Shown here: positions 932-31,109 of the stretch, piece by piece | How the letters are laid out: each line of letters starts with the position of its first letter | How positions within the stretch are numbered: position 1 is the stretch's first letter | NCBI GenBank assembly: GCA_019233695.1 | Contig: JAFAME010000055.1 | Location: 1 to 35,207 of the forward strand | DNA: 35,207 bases | Reading direction: 5' to 3' | DNA from: Methylobacteriaceae bacterium | Lineage (GTDB): Bacteria; Pseudomonadota; Alphaproteobacteria; Rhizobiales; Beijerinckiaceae | Notes under the pieces: model-generated | The model's database searches: none | Told to the model about the DNA's origin: nothing | The model's input: the letters and a program-made list of their open reading frames with translations, nothing else | Translations under genes and position numbers: made by a program

Positions 932-3295
932 TCAGCCCCTCCACCGCCAGTTTGCGATCTCCGGCATGTCGGTGCCATGCTCGCTGACATAGAGCTTGTG
1001 CCGTTCCATCGTGCGCCAATATCGCCCCATTGCATCCGGCAGGTAAGGCGCAAGGCGCGGAGTGCGCCGGACGGCGTCAAGTGCGAGCTGATAGCGGTCG
1101 AGGTGATTGAGCACGACCATGTCGAAGGGCGTCGTCGTGGTACCCTCTTCGTTGTAGCCGCGAACATGGAAGTTGCCATGGTTGTGGCGGCTGTAGGTGA
1201 GCCGGTGGATGAGCGAGGGATAGCCGTGGAAGGCAAATATGACGGGCCTGTCCTTGGTGAAGATTTCGTCGAATTCCCAGTCGTCGAGACCGTGGGGATG
1301 AGCGCCGCGCGGCTGCAGGACCATCAGATCGACGACGTTGACGACCCGGATGCGGATGTCTGCGATTGTGTCGCGTAACAATGTGACGGCGGCGAGCGTT
1401 TCGAGGGTCGGCACATCGCCGGCGCAGGCCATCACTACGTCGGGATCACCGGTATCGTTGCTGGCCCATTGCCAGATCCCCGCGCCGGCTGTGCAATGTC
1501 TCACTGCCGATTCGATGTCCAGCCACTGCCATTCTGGCTGCTTGCCGGCGACAATAAGATTGACGTAGTTCCTACTCCTCAAGCAATGATCGGCGACCGA
1601 AAGAAGGCAGTTCGCGTCGGGTGGCAAGTATATGCGTACAACGTCCGATTTCTTGTTGGCGACATGATCTATGAAGCCAGGATCCTGATGCGAAAAGCCG
1701 TTGTGGTCCTGCCGCCAGACATGCGACGTGAGCAGGTAATTCAGAGATGCAATCGGCTTGCGCCAGGGAATCTGCCGAATGGTTTTCAACCACTTGGCAT
1801 GCTGGTTGAACATCGAATCGACAATATGGATGAAGGCTTCGTAGCAGGAAAAAAGACCATGGCGACCGGTCAGAAGGTAGCCTTCGAGCCAGCCCTGGCA
1901 CATGTGCTCGCTGAGAACTTCCATCACGCGGCCCTCGGCGCTGAGGTTGGTGTCCACGTCCACCGTTTCCGCCATCCATTCCTTGCCCGTGACCTCATAG
2001 ATCGCGTCGAGCCGATTCGAGGCTGTTTCATCCGGTCCGAAAATCCGGAAGTTCTTCGCTGAAAGGTTCCGTTTCATGACATCGCGCAGGAACCTGCCAA
2101 GCACCCGAGTGGACTCGGTTTCGATGCCGCCCGGAGCGGGGATGGCAACGGCATAGTCACGGAAATTCGGCATCGACAAAGCTTGCAGAAGCTCCCCGCC
2201 GTTGGCGTGTGGATTGGCGCTCATGCGCCGATGGCCGGTCGGCGCCAGGGCGGCAAATTCCTCACGGAATTTCCCATTCTCGTCGAACAATTCCTCCGGC
2301 CGATAGCTCCTCAGCCAGTCTTCGAGCTGTTTGACGTGCTCGGGGGCCTTGAAATCGGCAATGGGGACCTGGTGCGCCCTCCAGGTTCCCTCGACGGGCA
2401 GCCCGTCGACGAATTTCGGGCCCGTCCAGCCCTTGGGGGTTCGAAGCACGATCATGGGCCAGCTAGGGCGCGATGACCCCTTGTGATCTCCTCCGTCGCG
2501 TGCGGCCCCCTGGATTTTGCGAACCCTGGCAAAGGCGGCATCGAGTGACGCGGCGAAGAGCTGGTGCATCTGTGGCGGATCGCTGCCCTCGACGAACAGC
2601 GGCTCATAACCATAGCCGACAAACAGGCTTCGCAATTCCTCCGCGGTGATGCGCGCCAGGACTGTCGGGTTGGCGATCTTGAAGCCGTTGAGGTGAAGGA
2701 TGGGGAGAACCGCCCCGTCGCGCGCCGGATTGAGGAACTTGTTCGAATGCCAGCTTGCCGCCAGCGCTCCGGTCTCCGCTTCGCCGTCACCGACAACGCA
2801 GGCGACGATGAGGTCCGGATTGTCGAAAGCGGCTCCGTAGGCGTGCAGGAGCGAATAGCCGAGTTCGCCGCCCTCGTGGATCGAGCCCGGCGTCTCCGGC
2901 GCAACGTGGCTCGGGATGCCGTAGGGCCAGGAAAATTGACGGAACAGGCGCTGCAGTCCGTTGCGGTTCTGCTCGATGGCCGGATAGGCCTCGGTGTAAG
3001 AACCTTCAAGATAGCTGTGTGCGACGAGGCCCGGCCCCCCGTGGCCAGGCCCGATGACATAGATCATGTTCAAGTCGTTTTGCGTGATCAGCCGATTGAG
3101 ATGGACATAGATGAAATTCAGGCCACTTGTGGTGCCCCAGTGCCCGAGCAACCGGGGTTTGATATGCTCGCGAGTGAGCGGCTCCTCCAGGAGAGGATTG
3201 TCGCGCAGATAGATCTGGCCGACCGAAAGGTAGTTGGCCGCACGCCAATAGGCGTTGAGTCCTTCGACAACCTCGGGAGACAAGACGTCCGGCAT
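932..3295 (-). CDS. xfp: D-xylulose 5-phosphate/D-fructose 6-phosphate phosphoketolase
   Basis: Thiamine-diphosphate enzyme of the XFP family. It cleaves xylulose 5-phosphate (and often fructose 6-phosphate) with inorganic phosphate to acetyl phosphate and glyceraldehyde 3-phosphate (or erythrose 4-phosphate). Seen: family opening [19 protein letters not shown], the ThDP/Mg signature GDGEAETG followed by [11 protein letters not shown], and [13 protein letters not shown] in the second half. The 787-residue length matches the family (about 790). ATG at 3295 is preferred because AGAGAGG lies 5 nt upstream; an in-frame ATG at 3313 would add six residues without a good ribosome site. It stands alone: no acetate kinase or phosphotransacetylase lies beside it here, although these often neighbour xfp. 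It likely feeds pentose carbon to acetyl-CoA in the cytosol. Confidence 0.95.
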
Positions 3296-3502
3296 GGAAC
3301 CTCTCTTACGCATTCGGCGACACGGTATCGAATAGGTAGAATCGCGACGACCGAGGAGGCGCGGCGCGCATCATCGGCTGTGGCCGCGTCGTGACGGCCT
3401 CGCCCTCTGACAGATGAACCTCAGTTGCGCGGTGGCATTGCGGCCTTTCGGGCCGCCCTCGGTCGCTAAGGTCAAGGGTTCGGAGCGGATGCGAATGCAT
3501 GT

Positions 3503-5815: not shown

Positions 5816-6061
5816 ATAGTTAGATGCCGAAGCTTTATTTGTGTCTTGTTTGATGGAGCCAATGAACGGTAGCCACTCCAGCGCGATGCGCCACTCCTGC
5901 GGTCGACCCTGCGAGGTGCAGCTTGAAACTGATCGGAGGAGCGCCGGGGCGGCGATCCCCCGACCAAGACCTGGTTCGCGTCACCGAGACGGCTGCGCCG
6001 GCCCGATGCTCCAATTGTGTTGTTGATGAGCAGGCTGAACATCGCTAGCTTGAACGTCCTC

Positions 6062-7012
6062 ATGGGTGAGAGTCTTCGCGAGATCCGGCTGTTCGTTGCG
6101 GCCTACGAGGAAGGCTCTTTCACCGCTGCCGCCCACCGGGAGAATGCCACTCAGTCGGGCGTGTCGCAGCACATGCACAAGCTCGAGGGGCGGTTTGGCG
6201 TACCGTTCTTCTCCCGCGAGACCGGAGTCATTCGGCCGACGCCGGCGGGCGACCTCTACTATCGCTATTGCATAGAGATCCTGCGCGTGCATGAAGTCGC
6301 CAGGAACGAGATGAAGAAGTTCAGGTCGGGCCTGAGCGGCGAGATCGTCGTCGGACTGATGCCCACGATGACGCGCTCGGTGGTGGGTCCCGCGCTGGCG
6401 ACATTCGTCGCCGAAAACCCGAACGCTCAAGTCCGCGTGGTGGACGGCTTCAGCGCAATGCTGACCGAGCACGTGCGGGCAGGCGAATACGCCTTCGCCG
6501 TGGTACCGGCGTTCCAGGGCGGCCCGGGCCTCAGCACAAGACTTTTCCATTCGACCCCCGAGGTGCTGGTGTCCAGGCGTTCCTCGCGGCTCAATCATAT
6601 GGCCCCGATCCGCCTCAGCGACCTAGATCCGCTCAATCTGCTGCTGCCGAGCCCACAGAACACCCGGCGGCGCACGCTCGAGACGTTTCTCGCTTCCAAC
6701 GGCGTCCGGGTGCGTCGGGTGCTCGAGATCGACTCGATGTTCGGGGCGCTCGATCTCGTCGCCAACACCGATTGGGTGAGCATCTTTCCCGCCATCATGA
6801 TGGCGCCCGATATTGATCGCGACCTGTTCACGATCAACATGATTGTCGAACCCCAATTGACCCTCGATCTCGTCCTCATCGAGCCGCTGCGCCAGCCCAT
6901 GGGGCCGATAGCGGAGACATTCCTGAGACTCCTGGAAGACGAGACCGCTCGCATCAGCGCCCGTTGGGCCAAAGTGCCTGCCACGACCCGAGTCCCCCGG
7001 GCAATCGCGTGA
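6062..7012 (+). CDS. LysR-family transcriptional regulator
   Basis: The N-terminal winged-helix domain (residues about 3-62) shows the LysR pattern: LREIRLFVAAYEEGSFTAAA, then SGVSQHMHKLE as recognition helix and RPTPAGDLYYRY. The rest (about 90-300) is the periplasmic-binding-like effector domain, beginning GEIVVGLMPTMTRSVVGPAL. The length of 316 residues is normal. ATG 6062 gives the usual distance to the helix-turn-helix; ATGs at 6017-6026 would add 12-15 residues and neither has a clear ribosome site. It is followed in the same direction by the M24 and ATP-grasp genes. A textbook ATC-N9-GAT palindrome begins 18 bp after its stop, so it probably controls those genes in response to their substrate. 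That the regulator lies co-directional rather than divergent is slightly unusual for LysR. Confidence 0.9.
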   Translation: MGESLREIRLFVAAYEEGSFTAAAHRENATQSGVSQHMHKLEGRFGVPFFSRETGVIRPTPAGDLYYRYCIEILRVHEVARNEMKKFRSGLSGEIVVGLMPTMTRSVVGPALATFVAENPNAQVRVVDGFSAMLTEHVRAGEYAFAVVPAFQGGPGLSTRLFHSTPEVLVSRRSSRLNHMAPIRLSDLDPLNLLLPSPQNTRRRTLETFLASNGVRVRRVLEIDSMFGALDLVANTDWVSIFPAIMMAPDIDRDLFTINMIVEPQLTLDLVLIEPLRQPMGPIAETFLRLLEDETARISARWAKVPATTRVPRAIA

Positions 7013-7153: not shown

Positions 7154-8422
7154 ATGGGAGCAAATTTCGGCATCGCCGGCATGGACTGGCAGCAGCGCGT
7201 CAACTGGGACCGTTTGCGCGAATATCGCATCGAGCGGGCCCGTGCGATGATGAAAAAGCACGGTCTCGGTGCGCTGCTCTGCATGTACGACGAGAATGTG
7301 CGCTACATCACTGGCACGCTCACTCCCGGCTGGAACCGGCTGAAGCCGGGACTTCGATACGCCATGCTCTGTGGCGACGGCCGCCCGATTCTGTTCGAGC
7401 AGGGCGACATTGGCTTTCAGATCGAGCGCCACAGCCCGTGGATTCCGAAGGAGAACGTGCGCCACTCGTTTGCGTGGATCAAGGGCGCCGCGGGGCCGGC
7501 CTCGACGCAGCAGGTGAACAAGTTCACCAAGGCCGTCATCCAGGCAATGAAGGACAACGGCGTGCACGGCCAGCGGCTCGGCGTCGACTTCGTCGACATC
7601 AACATGATCAACGTATTCAAGGAGAACAACATAAACTGGTCCGACGGGATGACGCCGATGATGGAGGCGCGCGCCGTCAAGAGCGAGGACGAGCAGGAAT
7701 GCTTCCGCATCGTCGGGGCCATCGGCGATGCCACGCACTGGGAGTGCATGAAGTTTCTGCGCCCGGGGATCACCGAGAACCAGGTAACCGCCCATCTGAT
7801 GGAATACCTCTACAGCATTCCCGGGATGGAAGACGTCGAGGACGTGATCGTTTCCTCCGGCCCCAACACCTGGCCCAACTGGCGCAATTTTTCCGACCGC
7901 ATCATCCAGCCGGGCGACATCGTCTTCATGGACCTCGCTGCGCTCACATGGAATGGCTATAAGTCCTGCTATTACCGCACGTATTGCGTTGGCAAGGAGC
8001 CGACGGCCGAGCAGAAGGAGACCTACGCGACGGCGCTGGGCTGGCTCTACGATTCAATTGGTGCGGTGAAGGTCGGCGCCACCACCCGTGACATCGCCTT
8101 GAAGTGGCCGTCGGCGAAGGAGACCTGGGGCTACGAGGACGAGGACCAAGCCGCAGCCAACCTGTGGGGCCATGGACTGGGGCTCGCGCAGTACGACCCG
8201 CCGGTGATCTCGCGCATCTGGTCGCTCGATCATCCCATCGAGATCGAGGAGGGCATGACGTTTGCCCTCGAAACGCAGCACGGCAAAAGGTTCCGCTACG
8301 GCGTGCGCCTAGAGGAGATGCTGATCGTAAAAAAGGACGACATCGAGATCGTGTCGAACTTTCCGATCAAGCAGATCACCGTCGTCGACCCGCTGCCGGG
8401 CTATGGAGACCATGTCAAATAG
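7154..8422 (+). CDS. M24-family (creatinase/Xaa-Pro aminopeptidase fold) enzyme with altered metal site
   Basis: 422 residues: N-terminal creatinase-like domain (about 1-170) and C-terminal pita-bread M24 domain (about 180-400). In M24 metalloenzymes the metals are held by D, D, H, E, E. Here the first Asp (D260 in FMDLAAL), His (H340 in GHGLGL), Glu (E373 in FALETQHG) and Glu (E387 in VRLEEM) are kept. The second Asp, normally in G-Y-x-S-D-x-x-R-T, is Cys272 (GYKSCYYRTY). The protein may thus be a mononuclear or non-metal enzyme like creatinase, or a specialised lyase/hydrolase as seen in the DddP and DoeA branches. The true substrate is unknown. An AGAGG lies upstream of the ATG. It appears to form an operon with the next gene and to be under the LysR regulator. 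Confidence 0.85.
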   Translation: MGANFGIAGMDWQQRVNWDRLREYRIERARAMMKKHGLGALLCMYDENVRYITGTLTPGWNRLKPGLRYAMLCGDGRPILFEQGDIGFQIERHSPWIPKENVRHSFAWIKGAAGPASTQQVNKFTKAVIQAMKDNGVHGQRLGVDFVDINMINVFKENNINWSDGMTPMMEARAVKSEDEQECFRIVGAIGDATHWECMKFLRPGITENQVTAHLMEYLYSIPGMEDVEDVIVSSGPNTWPNWRNFSDRIIQPGDIVFMDLAALTWNGYKSCYYRTYCVGKEPTAEQKETYATALGWLYDSIGAVKVGATTRDIALKWPSAKETWGYEDEDQAAANLWGHGLGLAQYDPPVISRIWSLDHPIEIEEGMTFALETQHGKRFRYGVRLEEMLIVKKDDIEIVSNFPIKQITVVDPLPGYGDHVK

Positions 8423-8543: not shown

Positions 8544-9824
8544 ATGACTGCCTTCGTTTTGCCGCTCGACGACGTGCGGGCGACCTCGCCCGACGAGGTC
8601 GGCCCGAAAGCGGCCAATCTGGCGCGGCTTGCCTGTGCCGGCCTGCCGACCCCGGGAGGATTTGCACTGACCGCGGCGGCCTACCGCCACCAGCTTCGCC
8701 ATCTCGGCATCGCGGAGATGGTACAGGCGTACGGCGGCGCTGAGCCGCCAGCTTCACGCATGCTGTCCGTGAAGATCCGGCTGGCGCTCCATCAGGGGTC
8801 GATCGCGCCTGCGATCCTTGCCCCATTGCTCGTCTGGTGGCGCGCACAGCGGGCCATTGCCCTACTCGGCGCAGTGCGTTCCTCCGCACTCATCGAGGAT
8901 CGGCGGGAGGCAAATTTCGCGGGGCAGTTCGAAAGCTTCCTTGGGCTGAGCGAAGAAAGCGAATTCCTGACTGCCGTGCGGGCGTGCTGGGCGTCGTTGT
9001 GGACATCAAACGCCCGCCGTTACATGGACCATCACGGTCTGTCGCCGGCCGAGACGGCGATGGGCGTCCTCATTCAACCGCTGATCTCGGCGCATGCCTC
9101 CGGCGGCGGCCTGAGCCAAACTGCTGAGGGCGAGATGTTGATTTCGGCCACCTGGGGGCTCGGTTCCGCGATTGCGCAAGGCGAGGTGGTTCCCGACCGG
9201 ATGGTGCTCGATCGCGGCGGGCGCCTGCTGAGTATCGAGCCCGGCCGCAAGGCGCAGCGGGATCAGTGCGTGCATGGGCTCGGTACGCGGTCGCGGCCGG
9301 TCCCGCTCAGCCTCAGATGCGAGGCGAGCCTCGGCAAAGACCAGGCCGAGGCGCTTGGGGCGATGCTACTTGCCGCGGAGAGAATCTGCGCTGGACCCGC
9401 CGAGATTGAATGGGCGCTGGACGACCAGGGCCTGCATCTCCTGCAGGCCCGCCCGCTGCGCGTCGAGCCGGCGCATGTTCTGGACGAGATCTGGCTGCGG
9501 CATCCTGGCCTGCGCGGACATCCCGCCGGAATCGGCTGGGGCTCCGGACGCAGCGTCGTCGTCCGCTGCGAATGCGAGCTCTCGCGCGTCGCGCCAGGCG
9601 ACATTCTGGTCACCGAGGTGGCCGGCCCGGCCCTCAGCCAGGTGCTGCCGCGCGTCGCCGGGGTGGTCACCGAGCTCGGCGGATCGACCTCCCATCTTGC
9701 CTCGCTTGCGCGCGAGCGGGGCATCCCCATGGTGCTCGGCGTCTTGGGGGCGACCAGGCGGATCCCGGATGGTTCGCAGGTCGCGGTCGATGGCGTCGCC
9801 GGGATCGTGCGCTGGATCAACTGA
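8544..9824 (+). CDS. PEP-synthase/PPDK-like ATP-grasp plus phosphohistidine protein, no third domain
   Basis: 426 residues. The N-terminal ATP-grasp domain (about 1-310) has the PPDK_N features: VGPKAANLARL, VRSSALIED, NFAGQFESFLG, WGLGSAIAQGEVVPDR and IEWALDDQGLHLLQARPL. The C-terminal swivelling domain (about 345-425) has TELGGSTSHLASLARERGIP with the phospho-acceptor His384. PEP synthase and PPDK carry a further PEP/pyruvate barrel, and rifampin phosphotransferase carries a drug-binding domain between these two; neither is present. Chemistry implied by the family: ATP dephosphorylation to a phospho-His, then transfer to an acceptor. The acceptor site must be on another protein, as in phenylphosphate synthase, or the small protein binds the acceptor itself. 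Start at ATG 8544 with ACGAGG upstream. 121 bp after the M24 gene. Confidence 0.85.
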   Translation: MTAFVLPLDDVRATSPDEVGPKAANLARLACAGLPTPGGFALTAAAYRHQLRHLGIAEMVQAYGGAEPPASRMLSVKIRLALHQGSIAPAILAPLLVWWRAQRAIALLGAVRSSALIEDRREANFAGQFESFLGLSEESEFLTAVRACWASLWTSNARRYMDHHGLSPAETAMGVLIQPLISAHASGGGLSQTAEGEMLISATWGLGSAIAQGEVVPDRMVLDRGGRLLSIEPGRKAQRDQCVHGLGTRSRPVPLSLRCEASLGKDQAEALGAMLLAAERICAGPAEIEWALDDQGLHLLQARPLRVEPAHVLDEIWLRHPGLRGHPAGIGWGSGRSVVVRCECELSRVAPGDILVTEVAGPALSQVLPRVAGVVTELGGSTSHLASLARERGIPMVLGVLGATRRIPDGSQVAVDGVAGIVRWIN

Positions 9825-9918
9825 GGGAGAGACCGCCCCATTGGGCGCAGAGCTGCTTGTGTCGAAGGGCAGCGCCGAGGACATCCTTGCCGTGGCATGC
9901 GAAGCCGATGCGTAGCGG

Positions 9919-10821
9919 TCAGTCGGACTTTGGCACGAAGTCGAACCCGTCACCGCGGCGTATGATCCGGCAGGTCGACGGTGCCGGGAAATGCGAGGTG
10001 CAGAGCAACGTCGAGGTCTCGGAAACGTGATCGAAGAATGCGCGGCGCGTCTCTTCCGCCTGGCGGGAGTTGAAATCGCCAAGCATGCCAATCTCCGGAT
10101 ATCGGACTTGAAGCGGTGTGTGCATCATGTCGCCGGTGACGATCGCGTCCTCGCCGCGCGTTCCCACCCGAACCGAATAGTGATCGATCGTGTGGCCGGG
10201 CGTCGGAACCAGCGTTACGAACTCACTGAGCGCGTGGTCGCTCTTCACCAGCTCGACCTGGTCGGCCTCCACAATCGGTAGCACCGAATCGCCGATCCAT
10301 GGGCAGGTTGCGGAATCTTTCCCATGCTGCGCAATCCAGTGCTGGAGCTCCCGCTCGGCGAACACGTATTTTGCCCGGGGGAAAGTCGGAACCCAGCGTC
10401 CATCCTCCAGCCGGGTGTTCCAGCCGACATGATCGATGTGGAGATGGGTGCACAGCACGTAGTCGACGTCGTCGACCGTCAACCCCGTGGATGCGAGGTT
10501 CCGTTCATAGCGGTCGCTGCTCATCATGTCCCAAACGGGCTCGTCCAATCCCGTAGCGCCGGGACCTGCGGGTCGAGGCTTGTGATTGCCGACGCACGTG
10601 TCGATCAGCACCACCTCATGCGGGGTTATCACCAGGTAACTTTGGATGCAGAGGATGAGCTTGTTGTCGTCGTCAAAGTAGTTCGGCTTGAGCCAGGACC
10701 GGTTTTCTTCGATGAATTCAGGGGTAAGCGCCGGGAAAAACTGCAGGGCATCGAAAAGGGCAGCCTCTTGCTCCACAATGCGATGAATAGTGATGCGGCC
10801 AAGCTCGAGCCTCTGTGCCAC
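9919..10821 (-). CDS. Metallo-beta-lactamase-fold hydrolase (lactonase-like)
   Basis: About 300 residues with the complete dinuclear metal set: HLHIDH (about residues 126-131), His in PTPGHTIDH, bridging Asp in VTGDMMH and last His in TSHFPAP. The order and spacing fit the branch containing quorum-quenching and gamma-lactone lactonases (AiiA/AttM-like), so hydrolysis of a lactone is a reasonable guess. GTG 10821 is chosen because GAGG lies 6 nt upstream; another GTG at 10836 would add five residues. It is the last gene of the minus-strand transport/dehydrogenase operon, 100 bp after the MDR gene. In this setting a lactone formed by one of the dehydrogenases would be a logical substrate (inference). 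Confidence 0.85.
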   Translation of the reverse strand: MAQRLELGRITIHRIVEQEAALFDALQFFPALTPEFIEENRSWLKPNYFDDDNKLILCIQSYLVITPHEVVLIDTCVGNHKPRPAGPGATGLDEPVWDMMSSDRYERNLASTGLTVDDVDYVLCTHLHIDHVGWNTRLEDGRWVPTFPRAKYVFAERELQHWIAQHGKDSATCPWIGDSVLPIVEADQVELVKSDHALSEFVTLVPTPGHTIDHYSVRVGTRGEDAIVTGDMMHTPLQVRYPEIGMLGDFNSRQAEETRRAFFDHVSETSTLLCTSHFPAPSTCRIIRRGDGFDFVPKSD

Positions 10822-10921
10822 CGCGGACCTCGTCACGCCAGAAATCGCCAGGAAACTATCCGCAAAACAGTCCGGTCCCGCCGAGAAAAGGAAAGCCGTC
10901 GTATCGGGTCACGTGATGCCG

Positions 10922-11965
10922 TCAGGCGTATCGGAGAAGGATCCCCATGGCGTCCTGTGGCGAGGTGTCGAGGATGTCATACGCCTCCGGCGCACGGCCG
11001 AACGGCAGCTCGTGCGATACCGGCGTGATGAGCCAGCCGGAGCGCAACAGGTCAAACGCCGCGGCATTGCGGCGTTCCCGCGTCCAGCGCGGCTGCAGCC
11101 CGGATCCCAAGCTGCTCACCTGCGAGCTGATGAGACGAAGGCGGCGGTAGTGAAACTCCGGCGACAGGACAAGCGGCACCTTGCGCGTGCCGAAGAAGGA
11201 GAGCACGACAACCGTGCCTTCCTGTCCGGTGGCCATGATGGCGGCCTGGAGCGCGCTCGGCGCGCCTGTCGCCTCGATGCAAATGTCGGCGCCACGTCCC
11301 TGCGTCATGTCGGCGATGGCGGCAGGGGCTTCCTCGGGAGCCAATGCCGCGTCGGCGCTCCAGGCAAGCGCTGCCTTCCGGCGACCCGCAATCGGGTCGA
11401 CCACGGCAACCCGGCCCGCCATCCTGCGGGCGAGCTGGGCGACCAGGCTGCCCACCACGCCCTGGCCGTAGACCACCACGACATCGCCGAAACGGACGGG
11501 CACATCGAGGTGGCAGTTGAGCGCCACCTCGAGCAGATTGACGAAGGCGGCGCGCTCGGGTGCGAGCCCGCCGGGCACGCCGGCGACCAGCCAACTATCG
11601 CTGCGGACCGTGAAGAGGTCCTGGTGCGGGTGTCGGACGAAGAGCCTGTCGCCGACCTTGAACAGAGCGTCGGGACCAGCTTCGACGACCTCGCCAACGA
11701 CCTGGTAGGCATACTTCACCGGAAAGCCGAAGCTTCCGACGCAGGTCTCCAGTCCAAGATCGTCCTCGGCGGGAAGCTCGCCACGGTAGACCAGCATCTC
11801 GGTGCCGGCGCTCACCAATGACGCGATCGCCCTGACCGTCACTTCCGTTCCGCTCGGCTTCTTGACCGGCTCTTCGAGCAGCTCCGCCCGTCGCGCCGCG
11901 GTGAACCACAATCCGTGGGCGGTCCCGGCGATCGCCTGCGGCGCAATTGTCGATTGGGTGTTCAT
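10922..11965 (-). CDS. MDR-superfamily dehydrogenase without zinc ligands
   Basis: 347 residues of the medium-chain dehydrogenase/reductase type: N-terminal GroES-like domain (VSAGTEMLVYRG, VGDRLFVRHPHQDLF) and a Rossmann domain with GQGVVGSLVAQLA (about 155-270). The catalytic Cys and the four Cys of the structural zinc lobe are absent, as in the bacteriochlorophyllide dehydrogenase (BchC)-like and related branches often annotated zinc-binding by homology only. Start at ATG 11965, with AAGGTGG upstream; a GTG at 11974 is possible. It probably oxidises a hydroxyl of the imported compound or its product using NAD(P). 58 bp downstream of the SDR gene in the same operon. Confidence 0.85.
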   Translation of the reverse strand: MNTQSTIAPQAIAGTAHGLWFTAARRAELLEEPVKKPSGTEVTVRAIASLVSAGTEMLVYRGELPAEDDLGLETCVGSFGFPVKYAYQVVGEVVEAGPDALFKVGDRLFVRHPHQDLFTVRSDSWLVAGVPGGLAPERAAFVNLLEVALNCHLDVPVRFGDVVVVYGQGVVGSLVAQLARRMAGRVAVVDPIAGRRKAALAWSADAALAPEEAPAAIADMTQGRGADICIEATGAPSALQAAIMATGQEGTVVVLSFFGTRKVPLVLSPEFHYRRLRLISSQVSSLGSGLQPRWTRERRNAAAFDLLRSGWLITPVSHELPFGRAPEAYDILDTSPQDAMGILLRYA

Positions 11966-12023
11966 CGGCACCACCTTGTCATCGGCGTGGCAAGAGATGT
12001 TTCAAATGTGAGACGGGGGCCTG

Positions 12024-12794
12024 TCACTTGGCCGAGTAGCCACCGTCGACCGGAACGAGCGCGCCGGTCATCTGGATCGGCGCATCGAGCAGGAGGAAGA
12101 CGCCGACGGTGGCGACCTCCTCGGGGTCGGTGACGCGCCCGGTCACGGTATTCGCCGCGAGCGCCTTTAGCCCGGCGGCGCGGTCTCCCGGATTGAAGCC
12201 GTCGGCCGTGGCGTCGTTCATCGGCGTGTTCATCGATCCCGGACAGATGATGTTCACGCGGATATTGTAGCGGCCGCATTCGAGAGCCGCCGTCTTAGTC
12301 AGCGCGACAAGCGCGTGCTTCGAGGCATTGTAGGGGCCGAGCAGCTCGCAGCCGTGCCAGGCGAGATAGGAGCCGGTGTTCACGATGGCGCCGCCCCCGC
12401 GCTTGATCAGAGCGGGGATCGCATACTTCATCCCCAGCCATACGCTCTTGGTATTGATGCGCATGACTTCGTCGAAGCCGTCATTGCTCGAATCGGCAAT
12501 CGGCTTGAATTCGCCAAGGATGGCGGCGATGTTGAAGATGCCGTCGAGGCCGCCGAAGCGTTGCACCGCTCGCGCGACGAAGGCTTCAACTTCTCGCGCC
12601 GATCCGACATCGGCCACGACCGGATCGACCTCGCCGGGCGCCTCCTTCAGCTCCCGCTTGAGCCGGTCGAGCTTGTCGGCAACGACGTCGACGGCAACCA
12701 CATTGACGCCGCGGGCGGCGAGCTGACGGACCACTGCTGCCCCCATTCCTCCCGCCGCCCCAGTGACGATGACACTTTGGGTCTGCTGAGGCAT
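12024..12794 (-). CDS. Short-chain dehydrogenase/reductase (SDR)
   Basis: 256 residues, classical SDR. Cofactor motif TGAAGGMGAA near the N-terminus, Asp after beta-2 (VVAVDVVAD) favouring NAD over NADP, NIAA in place of the usual NNAG, active-site Ser in VNTGSYLAW, YNASK catalytic pair, and closing VPVDGGYSAK. ATG 12794 is preferred because GGGAGGG precedes it by 6 nt; an upstream start at 12809 lacks a ribosome site. It lies between the permease gene and the MDR gene. The reaction is oxidation of a secondary alcohol, probably on a sugar-like substrate (inference from the linked importer). Confidence 0.92.
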   Translation of the reverse strand: MPQQTQSVIVTGAAGGMGAAVVRQLAARGVNVVAVDVVADKLDRLKRELKEAPGEVDPVVADVGSAREVEAFVARAVQRFGGLDGIFNIAAILGEFKPIADSSNDGFDEVMRINTKSVWLGMKYAIPALIKRGGGAIVNTGSYLAWHGCELLGPYNASKHALVALTKTAALECGRYNIRVNIICPGSMNTPMNDATADGFNPGDRAAGLKALAANTVTGRVTDPEEVATVGVFLLLDAPIQMTGALVPVDGGYSAK

Positions 12795-12861
12795 GTGCCC
12801 TCCCTTCAACTCTCATTGCGGCCCAGCCGGCCCCGTTTGCGGCCGGCACGCACCGGAAGCC

Positions 12862-13947
12862 TCATTTCTTCGGTTCGTGCTCGGCCTCTTCGAGCGCCAG
12901 CAGCCACCGCCAGCGGGCACGCCTCCCAGGCCGCGAGCTGACCACCACCGCGGCGACGATGATGACGCCCTGGACCATGACCTGCTCGGGCGCCCCGAAG
13001 CCGACCAGCACCAGGGCATTGTTCAGCGTTCCGACGAGCAGCGAGGCGACGACGGCTCCGAGGACCGTTCCCTTGCCGCCTTCGAGCGCCGCTCCGCCGA
13101 TGATCGCGGCAGAGATGACCGAGAGGAGGTCATTGGCACCGATCGTGAAGTTGGCGGCCGCGTACTGGCCGTCATAGAGGACGCCGGCAAGCGCTCCTGC
13201 CGCGCCGCTCGCAGTCAGCACGCCGACCTTAACCCGCCCGGTGCGGATACCGGAGAAACGCGCAGCAGCGGCATTGGCACCGGTCGCGAGAACACGACGG
13301 CCCATGGCCGTCTTCGAAAGAATCACCGAGCCAATGATCAACGCCCCCAGGGACCAGAAGGCGAGGATGGGGATTGAACCAATCGAGCCCCCGCCAAACC
13401 AGAAAAAGAAATCGTCATTGGCGATCGATACCGTGCTCGCATTGGTCACGATCTGGGCAAGGCCTTGCATGATGCCCATCGATCCGAGCGTCACGACGAA
13501 CGACGGGATCTTGAAAAAGACAACGGCCAGTCCGTTGAGGAAACCGACGCCGGCCCCAAAAAGCACCCCGATCAGCGCGGCGAGAAGGAAGTTGTAGTCC
13601 CAGGAGAGGAGGACGGCGGTGATCAAGGCCGCGACCGGCACAATTGCCGCGATGGAGAGGTCGATCTCGCCGGCGCAGAGCACGAATACGATCGCGACCG
13701 ACATGATGGTGATTGTGGCGGAGACGCGCACGATGCTGAGCAGGTTGACCGCGCTCATGAAGCCGGTGTCGCGGAGGAGATACGCAAAAACCGCGATGAT
13801 GACGAGCATCGCGCCGATGAGAATGCCGGGGTTGTCGCCGCGATAGGCGCCCCAGGCGATCGACCCGGCCCACTTGCGCAAGCGCAGCCAGAACCCGACT
13901 CGATGGGGTCTTGACGCCATGACATTGTCCGTATCAACCGCCGACAC
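12862..13947 (-). CDS. CUT2-type sugar ABC transporter permease (RbsC-like)
   Basis: 361 residues with about 8-10 hydrophobic segments (from ILIGAMLVIIAVFAYLL on) and the RbsC-family landmark GEIDLSIAAI (equivalent to the G-x-I-D-L-S motif), with VGFLNGLAVVFFKIPSFVVTLG and a C-terminal GGAALEGGKGTVLGAVVASLLVGTLNN. It forms the membrane channel of a ribose/xylose/inositol-type importer as a homodimer. The GTG start at 13947 overlaps the ATPase gene by 14 bp, indicating translational coupling; an ATG at 13920 is an alternative. It belongs with the ATPase and binding protein upstream. Confidence 0.93.
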   Translation of the reverse strand: MSAVDTDNVMASRPHRVGFWLRLRKWAGSIAWGAYRGDNPGILIGAMLVIIAVFAYLLRDTGFMSAVNLLSIVRVSATITIMSVAIVFVLCAGEIDLSIAAIVPVAALITAVLLSWDYNFLLAALIGVLFGAGVGFLNGLAVVFFKIPSFVVTLGSMGIMQGLAQIVTNASTVSIANDDFFFWFGGGSIGSIPILAFWSLGALIIGSVILSKTAMGRRVLATGANAAAARFSGIRTGRVKVGVLTASGAAGALAGVLYDGQYAAANFTIGANDLLSVISAAIIGGAALEGGKGTVLGAVVASLLVGTLNNALVLVGFGAPEQVMVQGVIIVAAVVVSSRPGRRARWRWLLALEEAEHEPKK

Positions 13948-15547
13948 GATTGGCCCCGCCGGCCGCCGCGATCGCCTCGAACTGCCGGCGCTGCATCATG
14001 GCAACAAGGGCGTCTTCGGTAAATTTGTCTGCTTCGTCCGGACCGATGGCAGCGCCAATGATCCCGTCGCGAAGGACAATGATGCGGTCGGCGACGTGGG
14101 TCATTTCAAGGAGGTCGGAGGAGGCCCACAGAACCGTCGTGCCCTTCTCCGCCATGAGCCGGACATTTGCAATGATTTCATGGGTCGCGCCGATGTCGAC
14201 CCCAAACGTCGGCTCGTCTAGGAGCAGCAGGTCTGGAGCGAGCGTCAGCGCCTTGGCCAGCACGACCTTCTGCTGATTGCCCCCCGAGAGCTCGCGCACA
14301 GCCTGATCGATGCCGCTCGCACGGACATCAAGCGTCCGCATCATTCGTTGCGCCAGCCCGCGCCCCTCGGAGAACCGGAGCAGGCCCAAGTTTCCGACAA
14401 GCCGGCGAAGGACGACGAGGGCGATGTTTTCCGCGATCGATTTCGCCAGCATGAGGCCGTGGATGCCGCGGTCCTCGGGAATGAGGAAGGCGCCCTGAGC
14501 CATTGCGTCCTGCGGCGAATTCGGCCGATAGCGCCTGCCGCGGAGCAGGATCTCGCCGCCGCTCTGACGGACATCGCCGAAGAGGGTGCGCAGCAGAGTT
14601 GTCCGGCCGCTTCCGGCCAATCCGACAATGCCGAGGACCTCGCCGGGAAACGCCTCGAAGGATACGTCGGCCAGCTTACGGCCGACACGCAGGTTGCGCA
14701 CTTTCAGTGAAGCCTGTGGTTTGGGCCGCGATGCGGAGGCCGCCACCATCTCGACACGCTTGCCGCGGCCGCCGTGCACAGGCAGGTGCGCCCCTTCCCA
14801 GGGACGGCGGCCCAGCATCGCGGCAATGAGGCCGGTCATGTTCGTGTCCTTCGTCGGGCACTGCAGCACGACCTCGCCCTCGCGCAGGCACGTCACCATG
14901 TCGCTGACGGCAAATACTTCGGCGAGATGATGCGTGATGATGACGATTCCGGCTCGTCGCGCAGCGATCGTCCGCAAGACGCCGAACAATCGCGCGATCT
15001 CTTCCCGGCCGAGCGGGGCGGTCGGCTCGTCAAGGACCAGCACCTGGCTGCCGAGACGAAGCGCCCTAGCAATTTCGATCAGCTCCTGCTCGATCGTGCT
15101 CATGTCGGAGGCGATGGTCGACAGGAGCACGCGCGGGATGGCGAGTTCTTCGAGCAACTGCGCGATTTCGGCGCGTTGGCGATGGCGGTTCACCAGCCCC
15201 GCCGCAGTCTTGTGTTCGGAATTGAGATAGAGGTTGTCGAGCCCGTTCAGCGTCCGGATCAGACTGCGCTCCTGCATGACCATGCCAAGACCGAGCGTGC
15301 GGGCCTCCGCCGGGCGGGAATAGGTCAACTGCCGCCCGGCGACCCGCACATCTCCCTCGGTCGGCCTTTCGGCTCCGAGCGCGATCTTCATCAGCGTGGA
15401 TTTGCCGGCGCCATTGTGGCCGACGATGGCGTGAATGCTGCCCCGGCGCACCGCCACATTGACGTTCTTGAGGACCCAGACCTGACCGAAGCGCTTGCTG
15501 ATGCGCTCCATCTCAAGAACATTTTCGGCTTGATGCGACGCGTCCAT
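13934..15547 (-). CDS. CUT2-type sugar ABC transporter ATPase, two nucleotide-binding domains (RbsA-like)
   Basis: 537 residues with two ATPase domains in tandem. Domain 1 has Walker A GHNGAGKST, Walker B VLVLDEPTAP and H-loop IITHHLAEV, but its signature motif is degenerate (MSTIEQELIEIARAL). Domain 2 has the Lys-less Walker A GLAGSGRTTL typical of RbsA/XylG, an intact LSGGNQQKVVLAKAL and LLLLDEPTFGVDIGA. This asymmetry is usual for the family in domain 2, while the loss of the LS-x-G core in domain 1 is a further drift. It energises the downstream permease. Two hairpins separate it from the binding-protein gene, consistent with lower expression. Confidence 0.93.
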   Translation of the reverse strand: MDASHQAENVLEMERISKRFGQVWVLKNVNVAVRRGSIHAIVGHNGAGKSTLMKIALGAERPTEGDVRVAGRQLTYSRPAEARTLGLGMVMQERSLIRTLNGLDNLYLNSEHKTAAGLVNRHRQRAEIAQLLEELAIPRVLLSTIASDMSTIEQELIEIARALRLGSQVLVLDEPTAPLGREEIARLFGVLRTIAARRAGIVIITHHLAEVFAVSDMVTCLREGEVVLQCPTKDTNMTGLIAAMLGRRPWEGAHLPVHGGRGKRVEMVAASASRPKPQASLKVRNLRVGRKLADVSFEAFPGEVLGIVGLAGSGRTTLLRTLFGDVRQSGGEILLRGRRYRPNSPQDAMAQGAFLIPEDRGIHGLMLAKSIAENIALVVLRRLVGNLGLLRFSEGRGLAQRMMRTLDVRASGIDQAVRELSGGNQQKVVLAKALTLAPDLLLLDEPTFGVDIGATHEIIANVRLMAEKGTTVLWASSDLLEMTHVADRIIVLRDGIIGAAIGPDEADKFTEDALVAMMQRRQFEAIAAAGGANRVGG

Positions 15548-15630
15548 CGATGCGGCCTCGCTCCGCCGCTACATCTGCGATTGTTGTTCGCGAGCGCTCA
15601 TCGGCAAAGACTGGCTCGACACGAACGAAA

Positions 15631-15648
15631 CCCCGGCCGATGCCGGGG
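15631..15648 (-). terminator. Intercistronic hairpin (second) between binding protein and ATPase
   Basis: Perfect 7-bp G/C stem with 4-nt loop (15631-15637/15642-15648), followed on the minus strand by TTTCGTTCG, a short partial T-rich tail. Placed between the binding-protein stop and the ATPase start, it would act as a leaky terminator or RNase block that keeps binding-protein mRNA in excess. Confidence 0.5.
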
Positions 15649-15689
15649 AGAGGTTTGGTCTCCGCATGCCAAATTCCGCGATACATGGA

Positions 15690-15720
15690 GGAGGGGACTG
15701 CGCCTGCCGACGGCCCCTCC
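15690..15720 (-). terminator. Intercistronic hairpin (first), directly after binding protein
   Basis: A 7-bp stem (15690-15696 with 15714-15720, 17-nt loop) lies 8 nt beyond the stop of the sugar-binding protein gene. Together with the hairpin at 15631-15648 it forms a pair in the 180-bp gap before the ATPase gene. Confidence 0.4.
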
Positions 15721-15727
15721 TGCGATA

Positions 15728-17011
15728 TCAGTCGCTGCAATCTCCCTTCGGGCAGACCACTTCCGGCCCGTGCATGAAGTCCCACGCCGCCTTCATGTCC
15801 GTCTTCGTGGTAACCGGGAAGGTCGGGTTCATGACGTAGGAGTGCGTGTTCTGGCCGATCGCGGCGAGCGCGGCGGTGAGCGCCATCAGGCGGCCGCCGT
15901 CGTATACGTCCTGGGCCATGTCCATGGCGATAATGCCCTTGGTCCGCATCTGGCGCGCGCCGGCATTGCCGAGGTCCATGGTGGCGATCTTCACCTTGTC
16001 CTCGAGGTGGAGCGCCCTGATCGCAGCCGCTTCGCCGATCGCCGGCGGGTCTTCCCACGGCGCGAACAGGACGTTCACTTCGGGATGGGCCGTCAGGAAG
16101 GCCTGCGTGAACGCCGTCGAATTGCTCGGGTCGGTGAAGCCCGAAGCCGGGTTGCCCGGATTGGCCTCGCCGTTGGTGATGATCTTGATGTTCGGATATT
16201 TCTTCAACCCGTCGAGCAGCCCGTTCTCGCGGGCGTGGATCGCATCGACATCGTTGATCCAATGGATATAGCCGAAGTTGGCGCCGTTCGGCCAGGTCTC
16301 ATGGATCGCATCGGCCATCTGCAGACCGAGATTGTAGAAATCGTAGGTGACGATGGCTTTGAGCGGCTTGTCCGGGCCGACCTTCATGGTCGGCGAGCCG
16401 AGGCTCCACGCCGAAACGGTGACGCCCTGGTCAAGGGCGGGCTTCAGGATCGCCGCGAACTGGGCGGCATTCACCGTTCCACCGGTGACCAGGATGTTAG
16501 GGCGCAGTGGCAGGACGGCGTTCAGCACGCCCGCCATGCCATTCGGGTTGAAGCTGTAGTCGGCGAAGCGGAGGATCTTGATCCCGAGCGCGCTGAAGAC
16601 CGCCTTGGCCCCGCTGCGCATGGCCAGGTTGTAGGGGACGCCGCTCCAGTCGAGATAGACCGCCGTCAGGTGCTTCTCGCAGATGGTCTTCACCTGTTCC
16701 GGCGTGATCTTGACGGTATTGTACCAGGTCGCATCCAACGGATCGGGAGCGCCGAGCATGGTAGCCGGCGTCTTGAATCCGTTTTTCGCGATTGAATCGA
16801 GAAGTCCGGGGCCGCCGATCGACTCCGGGATGGGCCTCGGATCGAGCGCGGCCGCATCATATGTCCCGCAGGGCTTCAGATCGCTGGCCTTCTGTTCTAT
16901 CGCCTCGGCCGCGAAGCTTCGGGTCGCCGAGGCCGTCAGTCCGGCGGAAATCAACAGAGCAAAGGCCACCGCGGAGGCGGCGCAAAGCGGCCTCATGAGC
17001 ACGTATGTCAT
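15728..17011 (-). CDS. Periplasmic sugar-binding protein of ABC importer (type 1 fold)
   Basis: 427 residues starting at ATG 17011, with an excellent AAGGAGG 4 nt upstream. Signal peptide: MTYVLMRPL, hydrophobic stretch AASAVAFALLISAGL, likely cleavage near RSFAAEA. The body follows the type 1 periplasmic-binding fold of ribose/inositol-binding proteins (ITPEQVKTICEK, KILVTGG-like NILVTGGTVNAAQ, VTVSAWSLGS, NVLFAPWEDPPAIGEAAAIRAL). It is longer than RbsB (about 300), with an N-terminal extension of roughly 60 residues and a Cys pair near the C-terminus (VCPKGDC). First gene of the minus-strand operon, divergent from the cyclase gene. Ligand unknown. Confidence 0.92.
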   Translation of the reverse strand: MTYVLMRPLCAASAVAFALLISAGLTASATRSFAAEAIEQKASDLKPCGTYDAAALDPRPIPESIGGPGLLDSIAKNGFKTPATMLGAPDPLDATWYNTVKITPEQVKTICEKHLTAVYLDWSGVPYNLAMRSGAKAVFSALGIKILRFADYSFNPNGMAGVLNAVLPLRPNILVTGGTVNAAQFAAILKPALDQGVTVSAWSLGSPTMKVGPDKPLKAIVTYDFYNLGLQMADAIHETWPNGANFGYIHWINDVDAIHARENGLLDGLKKYPNIKIITNGEANPGNPASGFTDPSNSTAFTQAFLTAHPEVNVLFAPWEDPPAIGEAAAIRALHLEDKVKIATMDLGNAGARQMRTKGIIAMDMAQDVYDGGRLMALTAALAAIGQNTHSYVMNPTFPVTTKTDMKAAWDFMHGPEVVCPKGDCSD

Positions 17012-17090
17012 GTTTCCTCCTTGGTCAGACGGTTCGCCGGCTGGGCCGCGCAACAAAGGGTCTTGCGCTGATGCCGATCTCGCCTGGTGG

Positions 17091-17157
17091 GTTGATCCCC
17101 CAATGTTAGCGAAAACCTATTCGTGCTCGTTCGTTGGGGACAAATAATTTGATCAAC
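17091..17157. promoter_or_regulatory. Divergent promoter region with nested inverted repeats
   Basis: The 286-bp gap between the divergent binding-protein (17011) and cyclase (17298) genes holds an AT-rich core. GTTGATC (17091-17097) is inverted as GATCAAC (17151-17157); nested inside, CCCCAA (17098-17103) is inverted as TTGGGG (17134-17139). An 8-bp palindrome TTGATCAA sits at 17149-17156. The spacing of the half-sites suits a dimeric or looping regulator that would control both operons. The GAF-PucR-type regulator encoded at 26918 is the obvious candidate in this window, but nothing in the sequence proves the pairing. Confidence 0.45.
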
Positions 17158-17297
17158 TGGGCAGCATCATAACCCGTAATGGTCGCCCGTTGAGCAAACG
17201 TGCGAAAAGGTCGGCCGGGAGGATCTGCGCGTGGCCGATCTCGGCCGTCCGCACCGGCGGCGCCAGACCGCGATTGCTCAACAAGCAGGAGGATAGA

Positions 17298-18269: not shown

Positions 18270-18423
18270 GGCAGCGAGGGCCGAAACGCCGATGAGCCGG
18301 CACGTCGGATCGCCCCGTTGCCGGGACGGACAAAACAATCGGTCGCGTTCTGGGCGCTTTGCCAACGACTCGGGCGGGTTGTTGCGACTACAGTTCCGGC
18401 ACTTCGGGAGTGGCCCATCGCCC

Positions 18424-20184: not shown

Positions 20185-20298
20185 AGACGGAGGCGGATCG
20201 AGGACAGCCGTCCAAATTGAATCCGTTGTCTGATGAAAGCGGGCCACAAAACACCGGCGAGGGACAAGCCGGGCAATCTACCAGGGAGGAGAGAGAAA

Positions 20299-21435: not shown

Positions 21436-21523
21436 CGCTTCTCGACGGTGCTGCCGCTCCCGCGCCTCGGCTTTCGGCCACACCGAAGACCGGGCAGCGC
21501 ATCGGCCGAGCGAGTGAGCCACG

Positions 21524-24094: not shown

Positions 24095-24123
24095 CCATCG
24101 CTGCCAATCCGGAGAAAGTATCC

Positions 24124-25140: not shown

Positions 25141-25156
25141 CGGTCGGCGCGGCCGG

Positions 25157-26826: not shown

Positions 26827-26917
26827 TGGTGCTCCTCTGGCTTGCCGGGCGATTCTGGCATCAAGCGCCCTTGTGGGCGATGGCTGTCCAGCCTATACGG
26901 CGGCGACCGGCTTTGTA

Positions 26918-28897: not shown

Positions 28898-29060
28898 AAA
28901 CCTGACCGTCGACTTTGCCGCCGCTGGTCGATGGATCGACGACACGCTTGCCGTCCACTGCACGCCGGTCGAGCGGCCTTCCTCCCGTCATAGCCGGCCC
29001 TTGTCCGGGACCCTGCATGCGCTCGCAAGCGAACGCGCAAACCGGCCATCGAGCACGCTT

Positions 29061-30050
29061 TCAGTGTTCGAGACTATCACTTCCAGCCAAGCCGTCGATT
29101 GCCAGCCGGACGGCTGCGGTGTCCTTCAGGCCGTGGCTGACCGCTGCCGACCGGTAAAGCGGGATGGTGGTGTCGAACAGCGGTGTCGCGGCGCCGCTTT
29201 CCTCTGCGAACGCCTTGATCAGGCGCATGTCTTTTTGCCACACGTCGAGCTTCATCGTCGGTGGCTCGTAGATGCCCCTGATCATCATCGGCCCGCGGAC
29301 TTCGAGCATGCGCGACTGGCCGGCGCCTGCCGCGAGAACATCGCACAGCGTGGCCGGATCAAGGCCACAGCGTAGACCGAGGGACAGGGCCTCGGCCGCC
29401 GCGACGTTGTGGACCGCGACGAGGAGGTTGGCGATGAACTTCACCTTGGTACCGTTGCCGAAGACACCAAGGCAGATCGCCCTGCGCGAAAAGTCGGAGA
29501 AGACCGGGAGGCAACGCCGTGTCGCCTCCGCGTCGCCGCTGACATAGAGCACGAGATCGCCGGCCGCGGCCTGAGCGCCGGTGCCGCTGATCGGCGTGTC
29601 GAGCATGGCAATGCCCGCAGCCGCAAGCCTCTCGCATTGGCTAAGCTTGCTGCTTAGCGAGAGGGTGCTCAACTCGACCAGCACTTGTTTTGGCCGTCGG
29701 CGCGCGCCGAGGACGGCCGTCACCGTCGCATCGAGCGATTCCTCTGTCGGCAGGCTGGTGAGCAGAAGGTCTGCCGCGGCGGCCGCAGCGGCAGCGGATG
29801 CGGCTAGCCGTAAGTGACGTTCGGCGACCGCCAGGGCACGCGTAGCGTCGGTGTCAAAGCCGATCACATCGCGTCCGGCAGCCACAAGGTGGCGAGCGAC
29901 GGCCGATCCCATGATGCCAAGCCCGATCACGGCGATCGAGTCCGGCCAGTTCTCCTCACTCGCGGCGCTCAATCGGGTTCTCCCATCGGAGGTGCTTGCA
30001 CTGGAACCCCGACTGCCAGAGCAGGCGGTCGTCGAAGGGGCCCGCGACAT
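29061..30050 (-). CDS. NAD-binding beta-hydroxyacid dehydrogenase (6-phosphogluconate/3-hydroxyisobutyrate type)
   Basis: About 300-329 residues. N-terminal Rossmann domain VIGLGIMGSAVARHLVAAG with Asp after beta-2 (GFDTD, NAD preference); substrate loop SGTGAQAAAGDL; catalytic Lys and Asn in KVKFIANLL; all-alpha C-terminal domain with KDMRLIKAFAEE. Oxidises beta-hydroxyacids such as tartronate semialdehyde, hydroxyisobutyrate or related sugar-derived acids. The start is uncertain: ATG 30050 lies just after the upstream gene's stop but gives a Ser/Thr-rich extra segment of some 27 residues. A TTG at 29972 has GGGAGAA upstream and yields a normal N-terminus. Forms a two-gene unit with the 2-hydroxyacid dehydrogenase. 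Confidence 0.87.
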   Translation of the reverse strand: MSRAPSTTACSGSRGSSASTSDGRTRLSAASEENWPDSIAVIGLGIMGSAVARHLVAAGRDVIGFDTDATRALAVAERHLRLAASAAAAAAAADLLLTSLPTEESLDATVTAVLGARRRPKQVLVELSTLSLSSKLSQCERLAAAGIAMLDTPISGTGAQAAAGDLVLYVSGDAEATRRCLPVFSDFSRRAICLGVFGNGTKVKFIANLLVAVHNVAAAEALSLGLRCGLDPATLCDVLAAGAGQSRMLEVRGPMMIRGIYEPPTMKLDVWQKDMRLIKAFAEESGAATPLFDTTIPLYRSAAVSHGLKDTAAVRLAIDGLAGSDSLEH

Positions 30051-30062
30051 CACGTGGGCGCA

Positions 30063-31109
30063 TCATCGGTCACGAGCACCATCAGCCCCAGTCTTGTCGC
30101 CGTTGCAGGCCCGAACGCTGAACACCTGCGGGTTGATGATGTTCGGCGGCCGGCGACCGTCGATGAGTGCGAGAAGGTTGTCGACGACGGCATTGGCAAG
30201 CGCGATTCGCGTCTCGGCGACGGCGCTGCCAAGGTGCGGCGTCAGCACGACATTCGCAAGCCTGAGCAGTGCCGGCGCGACCGCAGGCTCTTGTTCGAAC
30301 ACGTCAAGTCCGGCCCCGGCGATCTGGCTGCGTTGCAGGGCTGCCACGAGCGCCAATTCGTCGACCACGGGCCCGCGCGCCGTGTTGATCAGAAATGCCG
30401 TCGGCTTCATGAGCGCCAGTTCGCGCTCGCCGATCTGGTGCCTGGTCTCGGCTTTGAGCGGCGAGTGGATCGACACGAAATCCGACTTCTGCAGGAGGTC
30501 GTCCAGGGGAGCGAAGGTCACACCGATCTCCTGCTCGACACGGTGGGGCTTGCGCTGCGGGGACCAGTAGAGGACGTCCATCTGAAAGCCGCGGGCCCGG
30601 CGGGCAACGGCGCTGCCGATGCGTCCGCCGCCGCCAACCAAACCCAGGGTCTTTCCCCATACGCCAGAACCGATGAGGTGGTTCGATTGCCCCCCGGGGA
30701 AAACGCCCCGACGAACAAGTTGGTCTCCTTCGACGATGCGCCGGGCGACCGCGATCAGAAGACCAAAACAGATATCCGCCGTCGCTTCGGTCACGATCGC
30801 CGGCGCGGTCGTCACGACGATGCCGCGTCGCGTCGCCTCCTCGATGTCGATGTCTGAGGGTGTCACGGCCATGGATGCAATCGCCCGCAGATTCGGGTTT
30901 GCTGAAAGGATCGTGTGGTCGATCTTGTCGTGCATGAGCGAGAGCAGGAAGTCGCAATCACGAACGCCCGCGAGCAACGCGTCTCTCGGCAGTATCCGGC
31001 TGGAATCGGGATCGACCGTGACGTCCGCGACCGTCCTCAGTCGCTCAAGCGCGCTGACTGCGATGGGTTGGGTGACGAAAACGCGGGGCCGCCTTGTTGG
31101 TTGATCCAT
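30063..31109 (-). CDS. D-isomer-specific 2-hydroxyacid dehydrogenase
   Basis: 348 residues with the family layout: catalytic domain halves at the ends and a central NAD domain. GLVGGGGRIGSAVARRA is the dinucleotide motif; catalytic Arg in NTARGPVVDE, Glu in DVFEQEP and His in LTPHLGSAVAETR are all present. Similar to glyoxylate/hydroxypyruvate and 2-ketogluconate reductases. GAAGGGA lies 8 nt upstream of ATG 31109. First gene of the minus-strand unit that continues through the beta-hydroxyacid dehydrogenase, regulator, isomerase-fold and SDR genes. A role in reducing or oxidising a short keto-acid end product is likely. Confidence 0.92.
   Translation of the reverse strand: MDQPTRRPRVFVTQPIAVSALERLRTVADVTVDPDSSRILPRDALLAGVRDCDFLLSLMHDKIDHTILSANPNLRAIASMAVTPSDIDIEEATRRGIVVTTAPAIVTEATADICFGLLIAVARRIVEGDQLVRRGVFPGGQSNHLIGSGVWGKTLGLVGGGGRIGSAVARRARGFQMDVLYWSPQRKPHRVEQEIGVTFAPLDDLLQKSDFVSIHSPLKAETRHQIGERELALMKPTAFLINTARGPVVDELALVAALQRSQIAGAGLDVFEQEPAVAPALLRLANVVLTPHLGSAVAETRIALANAVVDNLLALIDGRRPPNIINPQVFSVRACNGDKTGADGARDR

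Follow-up and report, generated by a model that had tools for sequence, protein, structure and literature searches.

To our knowledge, every characterized dikinase of the PEP synthase/rifampin phosphotransferase superfamily has a dedicated acceptor domain, to which a swivelling histidine domain carries phosphate from the ATP site. Several arrangements of these domains have been described. In rifampin phosphotransferase (RPH), a rifampin-binding domain of about 430 residues is located between the ATP-grasp domain and the swivel. In the first phosphotransfer, ATP is held in place by Lys22 and Arg117; the phosphate is carried by His825 (PMC4844700). Phenylphosphate synthase PpsAB is a split dikinase composed of two separately encoded proteins (PMC6114531). 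In HpeHI of Rhodococcus rhodochrous GD02, the ATP-grasp domain stands alone and the swivel resides with a rifampin-binding-like acceptor domain (PMC12167813). HpeHI and PpsAB demonstrate that two separately encoded proteins can share the work of a dikinase in this superfamily. A preliminary description of the locus studied here set it against PEP synthase, PPDK and RPH, which all have a third, substrate-binding domain. This background has to be corrected, because two-component dikinases with separated domains (HpeHI, CreHI and PpsAB) were already known.

The two-domain dikinase and its relatives

We analyzed a stretch of 35,207 nucleotides, referred to as the window, from a soil alphaproteobacterium of the Methylobacteriaceae. 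It encodes a real and conserved small-molecule dikinase module of this superfamily, which has no acceptor domain of its own (Table 1). Pfam searches of the whole reading frame found no domain beyond PPDK_N and PEP-utilizers. The phosphohistidine motif GGSTSHLASLARERGIPMV (GGSTSH) places the histidine exactly at position 384. Residues 2-422 align with positions 4-460 of the NCBIfam model for PEP synthase, which has 798 positions. The match ends at position 460, indicating that the C-terminal barrel is missing. Together with a score of 226 bits against an equivalog cut-off of 598, this partial match identifies the protein as PEP-synthase-like minus the barrel, not as a PEP synthase. A confident AlphaFold model based on 36 sequences (mean pLDDT 88.6, pTM 0.86) also contains no extra domain. 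The preliminary description, which recognized only the ATP-grasp and His384 swivelling domains, is thus borne out by the domain profiles, the motif position, the coverage of the NCBIfam model and the predicted structure.

Table 1. Features of the locus, in window coordinates
Feature	Position	Strand	Basis or remark
LysR-type regulator, tandem upstream of the M24 gene	6017..7012	+	not conserved in the unit
Obligate genetic partner of the dikinase, an M24-fold protein of 422 aa	7154..8422	+	DddP-like fold, altered active site
Cys272 codon of the M24 protein, replacing a metal-ligand Asp	7967..7969	+	invariant in 25 relatives
Two-domain dikinase, 426 aa, ATG start	8544..9824	+	domain profiles, alignment, AlphaFold model
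ATP-grasp domain PPDK_N, residues 18-309	8595..9470	+	Pfam, E 6e-53
PEP-utilizers (phosphohistidine swivel) domain, residues 350-420	9591..9803	+	Pfam, E 1.5e-19
His384 codon, predicted phosphohistidine	9693..9695	+	invariant in 36 relatives
Remnant of H2, second D-2-hydroxyacid dehydrogenase	9825..9915	+	about 23 recognizable codons, ends in TAG
3-Hydroxyisobutyrate/L-threonate dehydrogenase-like gene beside H1	29061..30053	-	relatives near the M24-dikinase pair in six loci
D-2-hydroxyacid dehydrogenase H1	30063..31109	-	directly behind the dikinase in relatives, displaced and inverted here

The closest solved structures found by Foldseek with the model are RPH, PEP synthase, HpeI (9goj) and PPDK, and HpeI also matches by sequence. 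Along its entire length, the dikinase is colinear with the initial 460 or so residues of PEP synthase, in which the His domain likewise directly follows the ATP-grasp domain. Unlike PEP synthase and PPDK, it lacks the C-terminal TIM barrel (PF02896), hence also the pyruvate site. It shares with RPH the ATP-grasp domain, the swivel and the K22/Arg catalytic residues. However, a linker of about 40 residues takes the place of the rifampin-binding domain, leaving no room for an acceptor domain of the RPH type between the ATP-grasp domain and the swivel. Residues K22, R112, E287/E289, Q301, R303 and H384 are invariant across 36 aligned relatives (408-428 aa, mean column identity 73%). Given the roles of Lys22, Arg117 and His825 in RPH, this conservation suggests that the first half-reaction is very likely intact.

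A scan with one genome per species identified 39 relatives with 50-75% identity in alpha- and betaproteobacteria, Acidobacteriota, one deltaproteobacterium and one Rokubacterium. All are from metagenome-assembled genomes, many from soil, groundwater or sediment. The two-domain architecture is common to about 43 orthologues in alpha- and betaproteobacteria, Acidobacteriota and Rokubacteria. Truncation of a PEP synthase during assembly is ruled out by some 40 relatives of equal length. In the tree, Acidobacteriota-labelled bins are located among betaproteobacterial sequences, indicating that either transfer or mis-binning occurs. Among 248 genomes of the window's taxonomic family, the orthologue is found in the window genome only; the other matches are in frames of at least 800 residues, as full PEP synthases would be. 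The plasmid collection contains no orthologue, only matches with 31-33% identity that are nearly all annotated as ppsA.

A separate acceptor protein was sought in the window genome, which is 96.5% complete. No free barrel (PF02896) was found. The only proteins that contain this domain are three complete ones (frames of 582, 772 and 916 aa), each with its own swivel domain. These three and the dikinase are the only four proteins with PF00391, and no HpeH-like protein with a swivel and an acceptor domain was found in the genome. The barrel partner elsewhere in the genome, for which the preliminary description suggested a search, was thus not found. A barrel or acceptor-domain protein regularly encoded beside the homologues would have spoken against its proposal, but no such protein recurs next to the relatives.

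An M24-fold partner with an altered active site

The gene just upstream of the dikinase encodes an M24-fold protein. It is found at the same place and on the same strand in 32 of the 34 relatives with enough upstream sequence. The two genes are 4-253 bp apart with no intervening gene in 30 of the 32 paired loci, and a zinc alcohol dehydrogenase is located between them in the remaining two (L031 and L048). The M24 gene is absent in L025 and L046 despite upstream sequence, where contig breaks or misassembly are possible. Co-occurrence was perfect among 385 genomes of the same class: five have a dikinase orthologue, the same five have the M24 orthologue, and the genes are adjacent every time. M24 proteins outside the subfamily (E about 1e-80 to 1e-90, five genomes) have no dikinase orthologue alongside; the best dikinase match in these genomes is in a frame of at least 800 residues in three and absent in two. 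The distance matrices of the two proteins are correlated (r 0.73, Mantel p 0.0005). The link between the M24 and dikinase genes, proposed from this locus, is thus strongly confirmed, and the pairing is found in relatives rather than in this genome only. We found no literature report of this gene pair in open-access text.

The M24 subfamily is 79-92% identical across phyla, and the window protein is 92% identical to its nearest kin. At the same 13 loci, mean identity is 84% for the M24 protein, 67% for the dikinase and 66% for the dehydrogenase H1 described below. The nearest solved folds are the DMSP lyase DddP, followed by ectoine hydrolase and prolidases. DddP is the best match in both structure and NCBIfam, at 24% identity and with 91 bits against a cut-off of 600.

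The active site differs from those of the characterized enzymes. In M24 prolidases and aminopeptidases P, the metal is bound by five ligands (D, D, H, E, E), and two histidines are catalytic. Alignment with PepE (4ege) and DddP showed that four of the five ligands are kept (D260, H340, E373 and E387), whereas the fifth, an Asp elsewhere, is Cys272. In the alignment to PepE, the positions of the prolidase catalytic histidines are occupied by Trp243 and Tyr347. The metal ligands of RlDddP (D295, D297, D307, H371, E406 and E421) and its catalytic base D377 are also partly replaced: A262 aligns with D297, C272 with D307 and Q346 with D377. Ala262, Cys272, Trp243, Gln346 and Tyr347 are invariant in 25 M24 sequences. 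These substitutions exclude the M24 protein from the DddP-type DMSP lyases, and those at Cys272, Trp243 and Tyr347 exclude it from the prolidases and aminopeptidases P. The idea that the M24 enzyme activates or cleaves a substrate is doubtful, as the catalytic residues of characterized M24 enzymes are missing. The protein keeps most of a metal site and may still have a catalytic activity of its own. A distant M24 paralogue in the same genome (G000:C17:6448-7665) is interrupted by a TAA stop and is possibly a pseudogene.

The dikinases show a further feature typical of the family. Most relatives contain an H-x3-C-x-H motif in the ATP-grasp domain, followed by another Cys about 15-20 residues past the first Cys. 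The motif was not seen in alignments with PEP synthase or RPH. It may have a role in metal binding. In three loci (L087:9126-10457, L088:8529-9884 and L089:6402-7883), the dikinases carry His-rich insertions that resemble a metal-binding loop exactly at this site. Two of the three insertions contain long (HD)n repeats. Strict pairing with an M24 protein whose metal ligand has changed raises the question of whether the dikinase uses ATP to deliver metal to the unusual Cys-ligated site or to help it mature. There is a precedent in the GTPase ZNG1, which loads Zn into the M24-fold protein MetAP1 (PMC10642216). However, the motif is incomplete in the window, where C242 and H244 are kept and Q238 and S262 replace the other two residues, and it is absent from the deepest members of the family (L051 and L054). 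Metal delivery also leaves the invariant phosphohistidine His384 unexplained, and we consider this role very improbable.

The surrounding operon and its rearrangement in the window

The unit is larger than the two-enzyme pathway envisaged in the preliminary description. Of 38 evaluable relatives, 34 have one or two D-2-hydroxyacid dehydrogenases (H1 and H2) behind the dikinase. 2-Oxoacids resemble the acceptor of PEP synthase. The acceptor site could reside on another protein encoded nearby, most likely H1 or H2, with the dikinase phosphorylating an enolized 2-oxoacid as PEP synthase does pyruvate. Against this, H1 and H2 each have the usual NAD and catalytic domains of a complete enzyme. They are missing in L032, L048, L049 and L051, and in the window H2 is lost and H1 displaced. 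An acceptor role of the dehydrogenases is therefore unlikely. In L032, L048 and L049, the M24 protein is the only partner kept.

In the window, H1 is located 20 kb away from the dikinase and inverted. It is 49-67% identical to the H1 proteins of the relatives. H2 is reduced to a remnant, detected by tblastn against the whole window (E about 0.02) immediately behind the dikinase, which is its syntenic place. The window genome contains no H2 orthologue, the best match having 39-40% identity. The displacement of H1 and the remnant of H2 establish that the locus is a rearranged form of an ancestral M24-dikinase-H1-H2 operon.

These changes raise the possibility that in this genome alone the dikinase is decaying with the break-up of its operon and evolves fast, so that it may no longer do the job of its relatives. 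Its end branch in the tree is long (0.5, compared to 0.11 for its sister), and the family positions H238Q and C262S have changed in addition to the loss of H2 and the move of H1. However, the reading frame is intact and all ATP and His residues are kept. The M24 protein has remained close to its nearest kin, and the window still contains H1 and related genes. We find decay hard to favor and give it little chance.

The regulator upstream of the M24 gene is not a constant part of the unit. Six alphaproteobacterial relatives have a divergently oriented LysR gene, and these regulators are mutually 65-81% identical. The window LysR is in tandem orientation and only 40-43% identical to them. A LysR gene is found in part of the alphaproteobacterial clade only, which rules out a universal LysR/M24/dikinase trio. 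Of the trio for which a neighborhood survey had been suggested, the M24 and ATP-grasp members hold and the LysR member does not.

Importers and accessory enzymes vary between relatives (sugar-type ABC, TctC, Peripla_BP_6 and NMT1), and the substrate cannot be read from them. The window itself contains a large catabolic-looking segment at 9919-29000, with two sugar-type ABC importers, one of which has its ATPase and permease fused (21524-24094). The segment also encodes an MBL-fold lactonase-like protein, a zinc dehydrogenase, SDRs, a xylose isomerase-like TIM barrel, a PucR-type regulator and a CocE/NonD hydrolase (18160-20184). The hydrolase is 58% identical to one encoded beside the M24-dikinase pair in L048. 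Upstream of the locus, a complete phosphoketolase (XFP) gene is found on the minus strand at 932-3313.

Other genes adjoin the pair in the relatives. A histidinol dehydrogenase-like protein (L018:9039-10346 and orthologues, 81-86% identical) and a putative cyclase (L018:10506-11465 and orthologues, mostly 89-95% identical) are encoded near it in several alphaproteobacterial relatives and may catalyze further pathway steps. In L087, a UPF0261 (Tm-1-like) protein (10497-11738) and a fumarate reductase-like flavoprotein (11764-13464) adjoin the pair, and the same is observed in L088 and L089. These three loci are from alphaproteobacteria of another family. The neighborhood may help with the uncharacterized UPF0261.

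A possible two-component dikinase

The M24 protein and the dikinase are probably parts of a single enzyme or pathway step that has not been described before. We tentatively favor an arrangement in which they form one two-component, ATP-driven small-molecule enzyme, whose acceptor module would likely be the M24 fold. As elsewhere in the superfamily, His384 would be phosphorylated at the expense of ATP, which yields AMP and Pi. The swivel domain carrying phospho-His384 would then dock on the neighboring M24 protein. The latter would be the substrate-binding half and hold the acceptor in its pita-bread pocket. Such an enzyme may take part in the catabolism of a hydroxylated organic acid, in a pathway that would also involve 2-hydroxyacid oxidation.

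We infer the acceptor role of the M24 protein from three observations: no other partner remains in loci that lack the dehydrogenases, its sequence has hardly changed in evolution, and it has lost its former catalytic residues. A pocket recruited for a different reaction would be expected to lose these residues while keeping most of the metal ligands. The dikinase has the same-superfamily ATP-grasp domain and phosphohistidine swivel as HpeHI, CreHI and PpsAB. In those systems the function is split over two proteins encoded in catabolic operons; here the genetic pairing is with an M24 protein, and joint action would follow the same principle with the cut elsewhere. Unlike in those systems, the ATP-grasp domain and the swivel are fused, there is no rifampin-binding-like acceptor domain, and only the acceptor part would be separate. 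What differs from the two-component dikinases already known is thus the split point and the M24-fold partner.

Several observations argue against an M24 acceptor. The split lacks an exact precedent, since HpeHI and PpsAB keep the swivel on the acceptor component. The M24 gene is absent in L025 and L046, and the metal site is largely retained. The higher conservation of the M24 protein than of the dikinase could mean that it has a demanding function of its own. Adjacency fits two successive enzymes equally well.

The last point leads to the model of the preliminary description, in which the two proteins catalyze separate steps: the M24 protein is an enzyme in its own right, and the dikinase alone phosphorylates a small molecule in its interdomain cleft. 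Sharing an operon and being inherited together would be expected of such enzymes. The four retained ligands make a metal site with a Cys ligand possible, and H1, H2 and other oxidoreductases show that the pathway has multiple steps. However, we know of no superfamily member that phosphorylates an acceptor without an acceptor domain or partner. The catalytic residues typical of its family are also missing from the M24 protein, whose one-to-one co-occurrence with the dikinase is stricter than that of the dehydrogenases. Separate steps are the main alternative and only slightly less probable than the M24 acceptor. The most far-reaching form of the M24 acceptor proposal is doubtful: a new kind of two-component dikinase in which the pita-bread protein, a repurposed metallopeptidase fold, provides the acceptor pocket for a phosphorylation-driven reaction new to both families.

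A widespread and conserved dikinase that lacks an acceptor domain and is matched one-to-one with a single M24 subfamily devoid of the usual catalytic residues points to an acceptor module beyond the known barrel and rifampin-binding types. The two proteins are otherwise subject to misleading annotations in soil and marine genomes, the dikinase as 'phosphoenolpyruvate synthase' and the M24 protein as 'Xaa-Pro peptidase'. Their pairing gives both a testable joint function.
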